Assembly (NCBI GenBank): GCA_003221515.1
Contig: QHSI01000021.1
Span: forward strand, 33,355-90,047
Direction of reading: 5' to 3'
DNA length: 56,693 nucleotides
DNA from: Candidatus Rokuibacteriota bacterium
GTDB taxonomy: Bacteria; Methylomirabilota; Methylomirabilia; Rokubacteriales; CSP1-6
Numbering within the stretch: position 1 is the stretch's first letter; the number at the start of each line of letters is the position of its first letter. The notes beneath the pieces were generated by a model. That model ran no database searches. It was not told the origin of the DNA and was given only the letters and a program-made list of their open reading frames with translations. Positions 44,829 to 51,379 of this stretch are shown here, piece after piece. The position numbers were made by a program, and so were the translations under genes.

Positions 44829-45731
44829 TTATCCCCGACACAGCGCCGAGAGCGGAGCCGGAGCTGGCCTCCCATACCCGGCACGCTCGCCGACCAGATC
44901 GAGGTGGGGAGAACCCCAGTCCTCGATGAGCGCCGACTGGGCGTTCCAGCGTACCCGCCGATCGAGCTCCTTCACGTACATGTGGCAGTGCTTGCACGCG
45001 ATCAGGAGATACCCTTGATCGACGGTCTCCGGCTCGAGCCGCACCAGATCCTGAGAGCTCTCGGTGCCGCAGAACGGGCACTTCACGCGGGAGTAGATCC
45101 AGCCCCCACCGCACAGATGACACGCGAGACGCCTCCTGCCGTCCTCGAGCACGTCCGAGAAGCCGGCGGGACCACCGCAGAACGGGCACGCGGCGAGTCT
45201 CCACGCGTCCCCGCTCAAATGAGCGCGGACCGATGCGAAGTAGACGTCGAGAGCCGGCCTCAAGCTGCCGTAGGCGAGGAGCGCGACCAGCTCGGGCGCC
45301 AGGCCCGACGTTTCTTCGACGAGTCCGGACCCGATGCGTCCGGCAACGGGAAAGAACGCGTGAGGCCGGATCGCACCGCGATCCCACGCTTCGGCCAGTC
45401 GTTGCAGCTCGGGGGCTGCGCGCTGGCGCAGCTCGGCGATGCGCTCCATCAAGGCGCCCAACAGGTCCTCGATCTCGTCAGCGCCGATCGGGGCGGGCGC
45501 CTCCGCGAGCAGGGGCACTCCCCGTTCCCAACGCTCGCGGCACTCGGCCGCCGTCCACGAGAGCGGAGACAACCGCGTGGCCGACCAGCGTGCCCACAGA
45601 TCGAGGATGTCGCCGCAGACCGAGAGGGGCGCGTGGAACGACGGCCGCCGCTCGAGCAGATCCTCCCACTCCGCCTTGAGCTTGCCCAGCGTCACGTCAG
45701 TCGATTCTTCATCGGGATCCGAAGACACCAA
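44829..45731 (-). CDS. fdhE: Formate dehydrogenase accessory protein FdhE
   Basis: Cytoplasmic chaperone-like protein needed to make active exported formate dehydrogenase, thought to bind the catalytic subunit before Tat export. It is about 300 residues. The conserved C-terminal part has four CxxC pairs: CPFCGG, CHLCGG, CPFCGT and CKHC, expected to form two rubredoxin-like iron sites. The start is uncertain: TTG at 45731 or GTG at 45728, both inside or beside a strong hairpin. It is the last gene of the fdh operon. Confidence 0.92.
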   Translation of the reverse strand: MVSSDPDEESTDVTLGKLKAEWEDLLERRPSFHAPLSVCGDILDLWARWSATRLSPLSWTAAECRERWERGVPLLAEAPAPIGADEIEDLLGALMERIAELRQRAAPELQRLAEAWDRGAIRPHAFFPVAGRIGSGLVEETSGLAPELVALLAYGSLRPALDVYFASVRAHLSGDAWRLAACPFCGGPAGFSDVLEDGRRRLACHLCGGGWIYSRVKCPFCGTESSQDLVRLEPETVDQGYLLIACKHCHMYVKELDRRVRWNAQSALIEDWGSPHLDLVGERAGYGRPAPAPLSALCRG

Positions 45732-45774: not shown

Positions 45775-46650
45775 TCAGACCTGACCTGCGGCCATGATCA
45801 GGGTCTTCACGAGGAATCCACCAACCAGGACCAGCACGGACGTGACTGCGGTCAATCCCACGGACGGGCGCATCAGCCCTACCAGGCCCAGGAGAATCGG
45901 GAGAACGGAGCCGGCGACGATCGCGCCGCCCCAGAACAGCATGCTGTATGGACCGCTGGTGATCAGCGCGAGCGCGTTCAGGGCCGGCGCCGACCCCGAC
46001 GCGCGAACCGACCAGACGAACCCGATCATCGCGACCAACTGGATCACGACGGCCAGCACGGTGGTCGTGGCGAGCCTGGCGATACCGTCCCCGCTGCGCC
46101 GGCTGAGCGCTGCCAGCACGAGCGCCATGGCCGCGGCGCCCGACGAGGCGCCAACCGCGAGGAACAGGGCGCCTAGCGTGTGGGCGTTGATCCACAGCGG
46201 GCGCGCGGTAGCGCCGAGGAGAACGCCGGGGTACGCCGCGAGGAAGAAGCCGAGGAACCCGCCGACCACGCCGATCACGGTCTTCGGCCGAGACAGGTTC
46301 CGAGCTTTCCCGAGGTCCTCGAGCAACGTGAGGAGCGCGGCCAGGAACGCCGCCGCGGAGAAGCCGAGCAGCGCCCATGCCCCCATGCTCATCGGCGAGC
46401 GCGGGTTGAAGGTCATGACCATGTTCATGAATCGCACGGGTACGCCGAGATCCACGATGAGGATCACCGGACACGGCACGAGGGCGACGAGGGCCAGGTA
46501 GTACCCGACTCTTGAGACGTCGCGGTATCGAACGGAATCGACGATCAGCGCGGCGGTGGCGATGACGAACGCGCCGCCGGCGAGGCCCCCCAGGAAGAAG
46601 TACACGTCGATCAGGAAGGGCCAGTGCGCGGACTGGAGCAGGCCGCCCAT
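45775..46650 (-). CDS. nrfD: NrfD-type membrane anchor of formate dehydrogenase
   Basis: Polytopic membrane protein of the NrfD/PsrC family, 291 residues from ATG 46650, with eight hydrophobic segments. Early conserved stretch FFLGGLAGGAFVIATAAL, then MSMGAWALLGFS. It should anchor FdhA and FdhB and pass electrons to quinone. It replaces the cytochrome b subunit FdnI of enteric formate dehydrogenase-N, so it has no haem. The gene follows the Fe-S subunit stop by one base. Confidence 0.9.
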   Translation of the reverse strand: MGGLLQSAHWPFLIDVYFFLGGLAGGAFVIATAALIVDSVRYRDVSRVGYYLALVALVPCPVILIVDLGVPVRFMNMVMTFNPRSPMSMGAWALLGFSAAAFLAALLTLLEDLGKARNLSRPKTVIGVVGGFLGFFLAAYPGVLLGATARPLWINAHTLGALFLAVGASSGAAAMALVLAALSRRSGDGIARLATTTVLAVVIQLVAMIGFVWSVRASGSAPALNALALITSGPYSMLFWGGAIVAGSVLPILLGLVGLMRPSVGLTAVTSVLVLVGGFLVKTLIMAAGQV

Positions 46651-46651
46651 G

Positions 46652-47425
46652 TTAGGCCTCTCCGCCCGTGCCGCGCTGCCGGAACGCGACCAGCGCGCCG
46701 ATGCCGACCAGCAACGCGGAGCCAATCGACAGCAGCGAGTCCACGAAGATGTTCTTCTGCGGGAGCTTCGGGTTCTCCGGCAGCCCGTATGTCGACGGCT
46801 TGGACAGGAGCAGGAAGAAGGCGTTCAGGCCGCCCAGGAAGCCCGACGAGTCGGCGCCGTAGAGCTGAGCGTCCTTGAAGCCCATCGCCTTGAGCGTCTC
46901 GACCCGCTTCTGCGCTCGGCCCACGAGCTCGTCGCGGAAGCCGAACTGGATGGACTCGGTCGGGCACGCCTTGGCGCACGCCGGGCCGAGCCCGTTGTGG
47001 ATGCGGTCGTTGCAGAACGTGCACTTCTTGGCCGTGCCGGTGTTCTCGTTGAAGCTCACCACGCCGAACGGACACGCCGAGACGCAGTAGCGGCACCCGT
47101 TGCAGACGTCCTGGTTGATGTTGACCGTACCGAACTGCGTCCGGTAGATCGCGCCGGTCGGGCACGCGTTCAGGCAGCCGGCGTCCGCGCAGTGCTTGCA
47201 CACGTCCGACATGAGCAGCCACGCGAGGTCGCCGCTGGGCTTGGGCTCCTCGATGAAACGCACCAGCCGGAAGGTCTTGTCGGTGAAGTGGGTGTGATTC
47301 TGGTAGGTGCCGGTCCACTCCGGCAGCTCGAGGCCGAGCTCGTTCCACTGCTTGCAGGCGACCTGACACGCCCGGCAGCCGATGCACAGCGAGGTGTCGG
47401 TGAACATGGCCAGCGTGCGCGCCAT
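46652..47425 (-). CDS. fdhB: Formate dehydrogenase Fe-S subunit
   Basis: Ferredoxin-type electron-transfer subunit, 257 residues, of the FdnH/FdoH kind. Four 4Fe-4S sites are visible: CIGCRACQVAC, CKHCADAGCLNACP, CNGCRYCVSACP and CTFC with CAKACP. A C-terminal hydrophobic helix (SLLSIGSALLVGIGALVAF) anchors it to the membrane. There is no export signal of its own, so it is probably carried through Tat by FdhA. It starts two bases after the fdhA stop. Confidence 0.95.
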   Translation of the reverse strand: MARTLAMFTDTSLCIGCRACQVACKQWNELGLELPEWTGTYQNHTHFTDKTFRLVRFIEEPKPSGDLAWLLMSDVCKHCADAGCLNACPTGAIYRTQFGTVNINQDVCNGCRYCVSACPFGVVSFNENTGTAKKCTFCNDRIHNGLGPACAKACPTESIQFGFRDELVGRAQKRVETLKAMGFKDAQLYGADSSGFLGGLNAFFLLLSKPSTYGLPENPKLPQKNIFVDSLLSIGSALLVGIGALVAFRQRGTGGEA

Positions 47426-47427
47426 GG

Positions 47428-50400
47428 CTACACCACCCCCTTCTTCACGTTGCAGACGAAGGCTTTCGTCTCCTGGATGTAGACGTTGGGGTCTCCGACC
47501 GTCGCGGAAAGGTCGTTGGTGATGTCGCCCTTGCTACCGGGCAACTGTTCGATGCCGTTGTAGCCCCAGTGCCAGGGCACGCCGATCTGGTGCACCGTCT
47601 TGCCGTCGATGATGAACGGCTTGAACCGGTTCGTCACCATCGCCCTCACGTGGATCTTGCCCCGCGGCGTCATCACCGTGACCATGTCGCCGTTGGTGAG
47701 GCCCAGCTCCTTGGCCAGCTCGTGGCTGATCTCGGTGAAGTGCGAGTAGTGGAGCTCCGCCAGCATCGGCAGGTAGCGGGACATGACGCCCGAGAGGTGG
47801 TGCTCGGTCAGCCGGTACGTCGTGATCACGTACGGATAGTCGGTCGATCCGACGCCCGCCAGCTCGTTCTTCTGGTCGGGCACCTTCCAGATCTTCGCCA
47901 CCGGGTTGTTCTGCTGCTTCGACAACAGATTTTTGACCGGCGACTCGATCGGCTCGTAGTGCTCGGGGAACGGGCCGTCGTTCAGCGGACCGAAGAAGCC
48001 GCCGACCAGGTCGGTGCGCATGATGAACGGCTTGTCGCCGTTCTTGGCGTCGGGCGCCAGGAAGGGGTTGAAGTCGGGAACGTCCAGGCCCACCCACTTG
48101 CCCTTCTTGTCGGGCGCGTTGCCGGGGGCCTCCGCGTCCCACCAGATGAGCTTCTTCTTCTCGCTCCACGGCTTGCCGGCGAGGTCGGCCGCCGCGCGGT
48201 TGTAGAGGATGCGCCGATTCGCCGGCCACGCGAACCCCCAGCCGTGACCGAGGTAGTCCTTCTCGTCGGCCGGCTTGCGCGCGTTCGCCTTGTTGATGAG
48301 CTTGCCGTCCGCGTCCTCGACGGTGACGCCGGTGTAGATCCAGCAGCCGCCGGCCGTCTTGCCGTCGTCGGTCATGTGGGCGAAGCTGCTGAGCGCCTGG
48401 CCCTTCTTGTAGACGGGCTTGCCGTCCTTGTCGACGATCTCCTCGGTCGCGTAGCCGTTGACCTCCTTGAGGACCTCGACCATCTCCGGCTCGTTGGGGT
48501 TGCTGCCGTACTTGAAGCTCGCCGCCAGGAACCCGCGATCGCGCTCCTTCTTGGAGCCGGCGTAGAGCTTCTGGAGCCGCTGGGCCAGCGTGCACACGAA
48601 CTCGGCGTCCGAGGTGACGTCGCCGGGCGGGTTCACCGCCTTCTCGTGCCACTGGATGAGCCGCATCGTGTTCGTCAGCGACCCGTCCTTCTCGGCCGCC
48701 GGCGCCGCCGGCATGAAGAAGACCTCGGTCTTGACGGTCTTGGGATCGGTGCCCGGCGCCTTCCACACCTCGGCCGTCTCGGTCAGGAAGATGTCCTTCA
48801 CCACGAGCCAGTCGAGGCGCTGCATGGCGCTGCGGGCCAGCTTGGCGTTGGGGCCGCCGACCGCGGGGTTCTGGCCGAGGGCGAGGAACCCCTTGATCAC
48901 GCCGTTGTACATGTCCACGAAGATGTGCTGGTGGCTGTACGCGTCGGCCGACGCGCGCTTGGGCAGCCACTGGTAGCCGAACTCGTTGTCCTTCGTCGCC
49001 GCGTCGCCGTAGAACGCCTTGAGCAGGCTCACGAAGAACTTGGGCTTGTTGACCCAGAAGCCGCCCTTCGGCGTCTCCTTCTCCAAGTAAGCCGTGAGGT
49101 CCGGATGGGCGTCGCGTAGCGGCTGGGCCATGTACCCGGGCAGCTCGTGGTAGAGCAATTCCAGATCCGTGGCGCCCTGGACGTTGGCGTGCCCGCGGAG
49201 CGCGGTGACGCCGCCGCCCGGCCGTCCGATGTTCCCGAGCAGGAGCTGCAGCATGCACAGGGCGCGGATGTTCTCGACGCCGTTGGTGTGCTGCGTCAGG
49301 TTCAGCGCGTAGGTGATGGTGCCGGTCTTCTCGGGCCCAGAATTGGAGCAGAAGAGCTTGGCCACCTCCTCGAACTTCGCCTGCGGAATACCGCACACGC
49401 GCTCCACCATCTGCGGCGTGTAGCGACTGTAGTGGCGCCGCATGAGCTGGAAGACCGAGTTGGGATCCTTGAGCGTCAGGTCGCGCTTGGGATTTCCCTC
49501 GCCGTCGAGCTGATACTTCCAGGAGGTCCGGTCGTACGTCCCCTTCGCCGCGTCGAACCCCGTGAAGAGGCCGTTGCCGTCCGTCGCGGTCTTGAACGCG
49601 GGGTCAATCAGGTACGGCGCGTTCGTATAGTGGACGACGTAGTCCTTGAAATAGAGGTTGTTCTGGATGGCGTAGTTGATGAGGCCACCGAAGAACGCGA
49701 TGTTCGTGCCCGACCTGATCGGGACGTGGATGTCGGCCGCGGCGCTCGTGCGCGTGAACCGCGGGTCCACGTGGATGAACTTCGCGCCGCGCTCCTTGGC
49801 CTTCATCACCCACTGGAAGCCCACCGGGTGGTTCTCGGCCATGTTGGAGGTGGCCATGATGACATCCGAGTTCTGGATGTCGATCAGGTTCGTCGTCATC
49901 GCCCCGCGACCGAACGTGGTCCCCAAAGCTGGGACCGTGGCGGAGTGTCAGACTCGGGCCTGGTGTTCGTGGTAGACGATGCCGAAGGTGCGGTTGAGCT
50001 TCGACAGGAGGTAGCACTCCTCGTTGTCGGCGCACGCCGACCCGAGCGAGGCGATCGCGTCCAGCCGATTCACCGTCACCGCCAGGCCGTCCTTGTTCTT
50101 CTCCTTCTCGATGAAGTGCTTTTCGCGCGCGTCGTAGTAGCGCCGGGCGATCTGGTCGTACATCCAGTCGAGCGGCTTCTCCTCCCACGTGTCCGACCCG
50201 GGCGCGCGGTAGAGCGCCTTCGTGGGCCGCAGCGGGTTGTTGGAGAGCTGGATGGTCGCCGCGCCCTTGGGACAGAGCCGGCCCAGGGTGTGCGGAGTGT
50301 CGGGATCGCCCTCGATGTCGATGATCTTGCCGTCCTTGGCGTAGATCAGCTGGCCACAGCCCACCGCGCAGTACGGACACACACTACGGACGGCCTTCGC

Positions 50401-50526
50401 CTCTTTGATTTTCAGTGACGTCGCCGCGGCCTCGACCGGGGCGAGATCGAGCGCCTCGCCCGCAACCGCCACGCCCGCGGCGGTCGCGCTGCCGAACTTC
50501 AGAAAATCACGCCGGGACAGGCTCAT
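47428..50526 (-). CDS. fdhA: Formate dehydrogenase catalytic subunit, selenoprotein
   Basis: Molybdenum or tungsten formate dehydrogenase of the FdnG type, oxidising formate to CO2 in the periplasm. A Tat signal (SRRDFLKF) starts the chain. The 4Fe-4S site is CPYCAVGC plus Cys85 (Cys50, 53, 57, 85). At codon 193 (49948-49950) an in-frame TGA replaces the catalytic residue, in EHQARV-U-HSATV. Exactly this position is selenocysteine in FdnG and FdhF, and the frame continues with TFGRGAMTTN and ENHPVGFQWV. Reading through gives 1032 residues, a normal length; standard translation would wrongly split it. A SECIS-like hairpin follows the TGA. A strong GAGGAGG precedes the ATG. selABC genes are not in the window. 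Confidence 0.95.
49918..49936 (-). promoter_or_regulatory. SECIS-like hairpin of fdhA
   Basis: In the mRNA, 11 bases after the UGA, GGUCCC pairs with GGGACC around a seven-base loop (AGCUUUG). The 11-base spacing and the size match, from memory, the SECIS of Escherichia fdhF. It would recruit SelB with selenocysteyl-tRNA. Confidence 0.75.
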
Positions 50527-50564: not shown

Positions 50565-50843
50565 TTACCACTCGGGACTGGTGAGCTCGTCCCACGCGCG
50601 GCGTACGACGACGATCCGCTGGGGACTTCCCGTGTTGCCTTCGAGCTTTACGATGTCACCCGGATTGAGCGTCTGAAGATCGGTGCTCGAACCCTCGTCG
50701 GAGACGACAAGAGTTTCCCCCGAACACGTCAGGTCGGTGCAGACTTCGGATGCCTCTTTGACCCGAACATGCCTCGAGGTGTGATCCACGGCCACGACGA
50801 TCATTCGATTCTTGAGGAGGGATTCGGTGAAGCTCTGCGCCAT
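50565..50843 (-). CDS. Unknown small protein, first gene of the fdh operon
   Basis: I do not recognise this 92-residue protein. It has its own good promoter and an AGGAGG ribosome site eight bases before the ATG, so it is very likely translated. The middle has two cysteines (EVCTDLTCSGETLVV) and the C-terminal half is rich in beta-type residues (DIVKLEGNTGSPQRIVVVRR), like a small barrel. There is no signal peptide or membrane helix. The fdhA gene follows after 38 bases, so a link to formate dehydrogenase, such as cofactor handling, is plausible but unproven. Confidence 0.75.
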   Translation of the reverse strand: MAQSFTESLLKNRMIVVAVDHTSRHVRVKEASEVCTDLTCSGETLVVSDEGSSTDLQTLNPGDIVKLEGNTGSPQRIVVVRRAWDELTSPEW

Positions 50844-50955: not shown

Positions 50956-51279
50956 TCACCCTTCCTCCCGGCCGGTCCCCTCCATTCTCGCGTAGAGCGC
51001 CAACCGCTCGTCGAGGAGGCCCCGGGCTTCGTCGGTCCGGGAGGCCTGGAGGAGCTCGACGATGCGGCGACGGGTGGCCAGGTCGACGATCGGGCCGTGC
51101 ACGAGCGGGTTGTAGAATTTACCGAGCTCGAGCAGGATCCGGTCGACGCGGGCCACGTCCCCCAGATGGGCCTGCGCTTCCCTGAAGAGCTCGACGGCAT
51201 AGTCGTCGCGCTTGCGGAACCGGAGGCCACGACGGTGGCGCTCGGTCTCGGCCGCGTCGTCGCGGGGCTCGTCAGCCAC
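50956..51279 (-). CDS. Unknown small helical protein
   Basis: A protein of about 107 residues that I do not recognise. From the GTG at 51279 it begins MADEPRDDAAETER. After a charged start, residues about 25-105 look all-helical with regular Leu and Arg, containing KFYNPLVHGPIVDLATRRR and LLDERLALYARM. It has no membrane segment or cysteine. It overlaps the preceding very short frame by eight bases and is last in the pssA-truA string. An alternative longer start at 51345 would overlap that frame fully. Confidence 0.6.
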   Translation of the reverse strand: MADEPRDDAAETERHRRGLRFRKRDDYAVELFREAQAHLGDVARVDRILLELGKFYNPLVHGPIVDLATRRRIVELLQASRTDEARGLLDERLALYARMEGTGREEG

Positions 51280-51379
51280 GGGGCCCCGCGGCTTCCGCGT
51301 TGAGCAGGGGCTGCTCTCGCACGACCTCGCCGGAGACCTCGTCACCGCGATTGCCGCGGACTCGGATGTACGTGCGCAT
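51272..51379 (-). CDS. Possible 35-residue protein
   Basis: An ATG at 51379 opens MRTYIRVRGNRGDEVSGEVV and runs 35 codons to 51272, between truA and the next gene and overlapping the latter. The start is neat and the gap would otherwise be about 120 bases, but no ribosome site is clear. It is unrecognised and could be chance. Confidence 0.35.
   Translation of the reverse strand: MRTYIRVRGNRGDEVSGEVVREQPLLNAEAAGPRG

Follow-up and report, generated by a model that had tools for sequence, protein, structure and literature searches.

A probable selenocysteine-containing formate dehydrogenase in an uncultured Rokubacteria genome, with complete selenocysteine machinery and a remnant of fdhD

Formate dehydrogenase is described as the most widely distributed selenoprotein family of bacteria, and a Methylomirabilota metagenome-assembled genome with 63 predicted selenoprotein genes has already been published (PMC13188914). 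Rokubacteria are placed in Methylomirabilota (PMC8780371). Since selenocysteine (Sec) use in Methylomirabilota is already in print (PMC13188914), the locus described here leaves knowledge of recoding unchanged. The same source models the bacterial Sec insertion element (SECIS) as a stem of 4-16 bp with a loop of 3-9 nt, a UGA-to-loop distance of 16-37 nt, a G within the first two loop positions and a minimum free energy (MFE) of at most -7.5. Maturation requires a further factor. FdhD is a sulfur-transfer chaperone essential for all three formate dehydrogenases of E. coli, and FdhF produced without it is inactive, although its chemical sulfuration is possible (PMC6239281). These enzymes are stated to need the sulfido ligand for activity (PMC12140954). 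The titles and abstract openings listed for Rokubacteria selenocysteine, selenoprotein or formate dehydrogenase, or for Methylomirabilota selenocysteine, contain no description of the present gene. It encodes an ordinary selenoprotein, a member of the already known family of Sec formate dehydrogenases, recoded in a well-known way. Our analysis adds a well-supported case from uncultured Rokubacteria, in a genome that also encodes the complete Sec machinery.

We analysed a stretch of 56,693 nucleotides from Candidatus Rokuibacteriota bacterium, an organism of soil or groundwater (contig QHSI01000021.1), henceforth referred to as the window. The gene for a formate dehydrogenase alpha subunit of the FdnG type lies at 47428..50526 on the minus strand and encodes 1032 residues across one TGA. 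Two minus-strand open reading frames share its frame: 49948-50526 (192 aa, starting with ATG) and 47428-49926 (832 aa, starting with TTG). According to the list of open frames and the translation, the TGA at 49948-49950 (minus strand) is the sole interruption. The preliminary description had proposed that two same-phase open frames of an FdnG/FdhF enzyme meet at a TGA in the position of the catalytic residue, and each part of this proposal held. The coordinates and the single 1032-residue translation agree with the shared phase. A profile search with TIGR01553 (formate dehydrogenase-N alpha) gave 1160.9 bits over residues 3-1029 (cut-off 814.2), and at the catalytic position, where this class carries Sec or Cys, the window has the TGA of codon 193. 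In the sequence alignment, U193 pairs with the X (a modified residue) in ARIXHSAT of PDB 1h0h_A. Pfam profiles identified TAT_signal, Fe4S4, Molybdopterin and Molydop_binding (dinucleotide-binding) domains, and the PF00384 cofactor domain spans the TGA (residues 164-649). The protein resembles PDB 1h0h, 8cm4 and E. coli FdnG (1kqf) over its full length (895, 869 and 867 bits, respectively). It shares the Tat signal, the Fe4S4 domain and the Sec position with the solved alpha subunits, the Sec alignment having been inspected for 1h0h. We consider it very probable that alpha is a Sec-containing, Tat-exported formate dehydrogenase subunit in which UGA codon 193 is decoded by the standard bacterial route. 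Sec insertion is a well-supported prediction that draws on the reading frame, homology, conservation of the hairpin, the sel genes and the operon order.

The partner genes differ from those of E. coli FdnGHI. All are on the minus strand, and the order after alpha (beta, NrfD-like, FdhE-like, ccsB-like) recurs in many related loci. The beta subunit (46652..47425) is of the ferredoxin type and matches Fer4_11 above the cut-off, whereas its TIGR01582 score of 216.7 bits is below the 334.7 bits that mark the FdnGHI beta type. Where FdnGHI has the cytochrome b gamma subunit FdnI, the window operon has an NrfD-like membrane subunit (45775..46650; PF03916, 115.2 bits), which also sets it apart from the solved Sec alpha subunits 1h0h, 8cm4 and 1kqf. 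The ATG at 46650 is the probable start of the NrfD-like gene; the list of open frames gives a longer version starting at TTG 46725. A search of the genome for the cytochrome b gamma subunit (TIGR01583) gave a best score of 75.2 bits, on contig C55, under the cut-off of 115.85. With a third subunit of another family and a beta subunit under the FdnH-type cut-off, the complex is not FdnGHI. The FdhE-like accessory protein (44829..45731, start uncertain) is a weak match: it scored 43.2 bits with TIGR01562 (cut-off 187.65), and FdhE_central and FdhE_C were just under their cut-offs.

Directly upstream of alpha is orf92 (50565..50843, minus strand), which encodes a conserved 92-aa protein found in Rokubacteria operons of the Sec as well as the Cys type. 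One Cys column is invariant in all 29 aligned members, and none of the 29 matched Pfam or NCBIfam at E <0.01. The protein is predicted to have an OB-type fold: its AlphaFold model (pLDDT 76.3) has weak structural matches, the best with E 3.3e-3, to proteins that we take to be OB folds. Between orf92 and the fdhD remnant described below there is a further open frame (50956-51345, minus strand) without a Pfam match, whose DNA aligns at the same place in the related loci L089 and L117.

The preliminary description had also taken the in-frame TGA to imply a full sel system in this genome. The search for it recovered all four components above their cut-offs. tRNA-Sec (selC, anticodon TCA) is at C184:8663 (69.8 bits, gathering score 47), and profile searches placed selA at C184:10072 (567 bits, cut-off 268), selB at C184:11502 (359 bits, cut-off 242) and selD at C150:27763 (L019:1486-2445; 339 bits, cut-off 125). 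selC, selA and selB thus share one contig, on which selC lies 2839 nt upstream of selB. selD is itself a second selenoprotein gene, with its own in-frame TGA at CAGUASK and a strong hairpin behind it. Among the 39 genomes surveyed (the window's genome and its relatives), SelB is above the cut-off in 38 and tRNA-Sec in 34. tRNA-Sec was not found above the cut-off in G004, G008 and G016, three genomes that carry a TGA copy of alpha. In these genomes the contig starts 409, 1972 and 2879 nt before selB, and because selC is expected about 2.8 kb upstream, it probably lies off the contig.

From these components we propose that SelA and SelD would charge tRNA(Sec) with selenium, and that SelB, predicted to bind the hairpin 11 nt downstream of the UGA, would deliver Sec-tRNA(Sec) to codon 193. 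Sec193 would then supply the protein's ligand to the bis-MGD cofactor (Mo or W). Electrons would pass from alpha to the iron-sulfur beta subunit and on to the NrfD-like, quinone-facing membrane subunit. The system would thus oxidize formate in the periplasm, with quinone as the acceptor.

Selection on alpha was assessed on both sides of the TGA. In pairwise comparisons with eight orthologues, dN was ~0.07-0.16 and dS ~0.41-0.82 on both sides in 8 of 8 cases. Over the 487 codons downstream of the TGA, dN/dS was 0.104 and 0.082 against the two nearest relatives. Judged from these rates, purifying selection acts on sites both 5′ and 3′ of the TGA.

The gene next to the operon is in a different state. 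Close relatives carry an fdhD gene immediately upstream of the operon. Alignment of the window DNA to L089 leaves a remnant of 35 codons plus stop at 51272..51379 (minus strand), with 222 codons lost in frame relative to L089 and a junction at ~51306 with a 1-2 base overlap. No FdhD was found elsewhere in the window's genome with TIGR00129 and PF02634 at E up to 0.001, whereas 36 of the 39 genomes have one. FdhD loss as a general trait of Sec carriers was therefore rejected. An fdhD match occurs in 29 genome_contigs loci: it is unbroken in 27, ends at a contig edge in one and is broken in one (L117). The remnant is the only part of the locus that a specialist would reexamine, the loss of a neighbouring helper gene being less expected than the recoding.

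As fdhD is a remnant, the enzyme may carry Sec yet lack the sulfido ligand, and since the assembly shows the gene deleted, it is doubtful whether the enzyme is active in this strain. One reading, compatible with Sec insertion, is that Sec is inserted into an enzyme that is inactive because fdhD has been deleted and the operon is in early decay. We regard this as a possible though less likely state of affairs. In its favour, the window's genome has only the 35-codon remnant, whereas FdhD is present in 36 of the 39 genomes. In addition, fdhD of a near relative, G004, is also broken by a deletion and a frameshift (L117:2963-3609), and G002 has neither FdhD nor a close alpha copy. The FdhF precedent, inactive without FdhD and chemically sulfuratable (PMC6239281), points the same way. 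However, alpha is strongly constrained by the dN/dS values given above, and the window's genome is 95.4% complete, so that a second fdhD may be unassembled. Local assembly faults are also conceivable: alpha of G008 is broken near residue 690 by a short deletion (L089:7950-8200), and alpha of L114 has a run of N. The fdhD break of G004 and the alpha faults of G008 and L114 may reflect either real decay or such local faults. The activity of alpha in this strain is thus uncertain, unless the fdhD deletion is an assembly fault.

It is much less probable, and in our judgement improbable, that the Sec formate dehydrogenase functions without FdhD, the sulfido ligand being supplied by, say, orf92 with its one invariant Cys or by free sulfide. 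On this reading, fdhD would have been deleted in the lineage while alpha, the SECIS hairpin and the sel genes stay under selection. If real, the remnant would provide a test case for formate dehydrogenase maturation without FdhD.

Returning to the recoding itself, we surveyed the codon at the Sec position. A TGA is present there in 18 of the 39 genomes (G000, which is the window's genome and carries the window on its contig 34, G003-G010, G012-G017, G021, G023 and G025). In the genome_contigs survey, 45 of 50 loci cover the residue, and the 46 copies comprise 29 TGA, 13 TGC and 4 TGT at residue 193; the two surveys partly overlap, some contigs being identical. TGA copies also occur in loci of Chloroflexi, Bryobacterales, Desulfobacca, Geomonas and Phycisphaerales. 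The TGA is kept across independent assemblies. Compared with other Sec families, the window's alpha belongs to its own Rokubacteria clade and carries Ala where most other TGA families have the Gly of the SECIS-coding PALG stretch.

The candidate SECIS is a hairpin at 49918..49936 (minus strand) with a 6-bp stem and the 7-nt loop AGCUUUG (GGUCCC-AGCUUUG-GGGACC), supported by a register scan, covariation, synonymous-site conservation and folding. Its stem begins 11 nt and its loop 17 nt past the UGA, exactly the 11 bases at which a SECIS-like hairpin had been noted beforehand, and it is conserved among the TGA homologues. The hairpin agrees with the published model (PMC13188914) in stem, loop, loop G, spacing and energy, although C stands after the loop G, a place where G or U is commoner. 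Rfam models at gathering scores detected three tRNAs only, and no SECIS, in the whole window. The MFE of the isolated hairpin is -9.9 to -11.6 kcal/mol. A surrounding 71-nt segment has no stronger fold than shuffled sequences (z 0.20); a trimmed 25-nt stretch gave z -2.47 but was picked after the fact. Folding energy by itself is thus weak evidence for the element.

The homologues are more informative. Among 200 downstream registers, this hairpin has the highest pairing across 17 distinct TGA homologues: 95% over its 6 pairs, as against 69% in 14 Cys homologues. The SECIS alignment left out identical 63-nt rows (10 duplicates, some of them one locus twice) and L047 (28 nt, at a contig end). 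In alignment A1, 89.1% of hairpin cells are paired and the covariation score is 0.296, each value being reached by 0 of 500 shuffles, and compensatory changes on both sides occur in 7 cells, which again no shuffle attains (0 of 500). Such two-sided change is limited to two pairs, however, a number that 284 of 500 shuffles also reach. In alignment A2, which comprises 9 Cys paralogues and from which 5 Cys rows of distant families used in the register scan are absent, 73.0% of hairpin cells are paired and no two-sided changes were detected. That the Cys paralogues are still 73% paired indicates that conservation of the protein sequence, together with G+C content, accounts for part of the pairing. 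We also compared synonymous sites in 20 TGA rows, each against the window sequence. Codons 4-10 past Sec have 98.6% synonymous identity, compared with 74.7% over 86 other downstream codons, and this stretch ranks top of 108 sliding stretches, tied with the stretch one codon earlier. On the evidence of these alignments, it is the comparison across homologues, not the energy, that lifts the hairpin above chance.

These observations bear on the possibility that the gene is a pseudogene or contains a sequencing error, the TGA being either a nonsense mutation or a substitute for the Cys codon TGC or TGT. Such an account can appeal to the Cys paralogues of the same family with TGC or TGT at this codon and to the adjoining broken fdhD, which makes operon decay conceivable. 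We nevertheless give it hardly any weight. The occurrence of TGA in 18 of 39 related genomes excludes sequencing error, and its recurrence there and in the more distant groups already refutes the account. Moreover, comparison with the two nearest relatives shows purifying selection on alpha downstream of the TGA (dN/dS 0.08-0.10), and the hairpin is conserved. Equally negligible is the reading of two separate proteins, a 192-aa product ending at the TGA and an 832-aa product beginning at its own TTG (49924-49926, 21 bases from the TGA), because PF00384 runs across the TGA, the family forms one chain in solved structures and the Cys paralogues have one uninterrupted frame without stops. We therefore rejected the sequencing-error, pseudogene and two-protein readings on the recurrence of the TGA, selection, the hairpin and the span of PF00384, and retain the reading of alpha as a probable selenoprotein.

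The Cys paralogues of Rokubacteria (for example L093, L094 and L095) are 62-63% identical to the window's alpha and have the same orf92-alpha-beta-NrfD order; where the window's alpha has TGA they have TGC or TGT, and they lack a covarying hairpin. The presence of Sec and Cys paralogues within one family, both of which occur in L080, is useful for dating the Sec-Cys exchange. In that locus (L080:5647-15111), the Sec and Cys formate dehydrogenase operons are arranged in tandem, each with one orf92.
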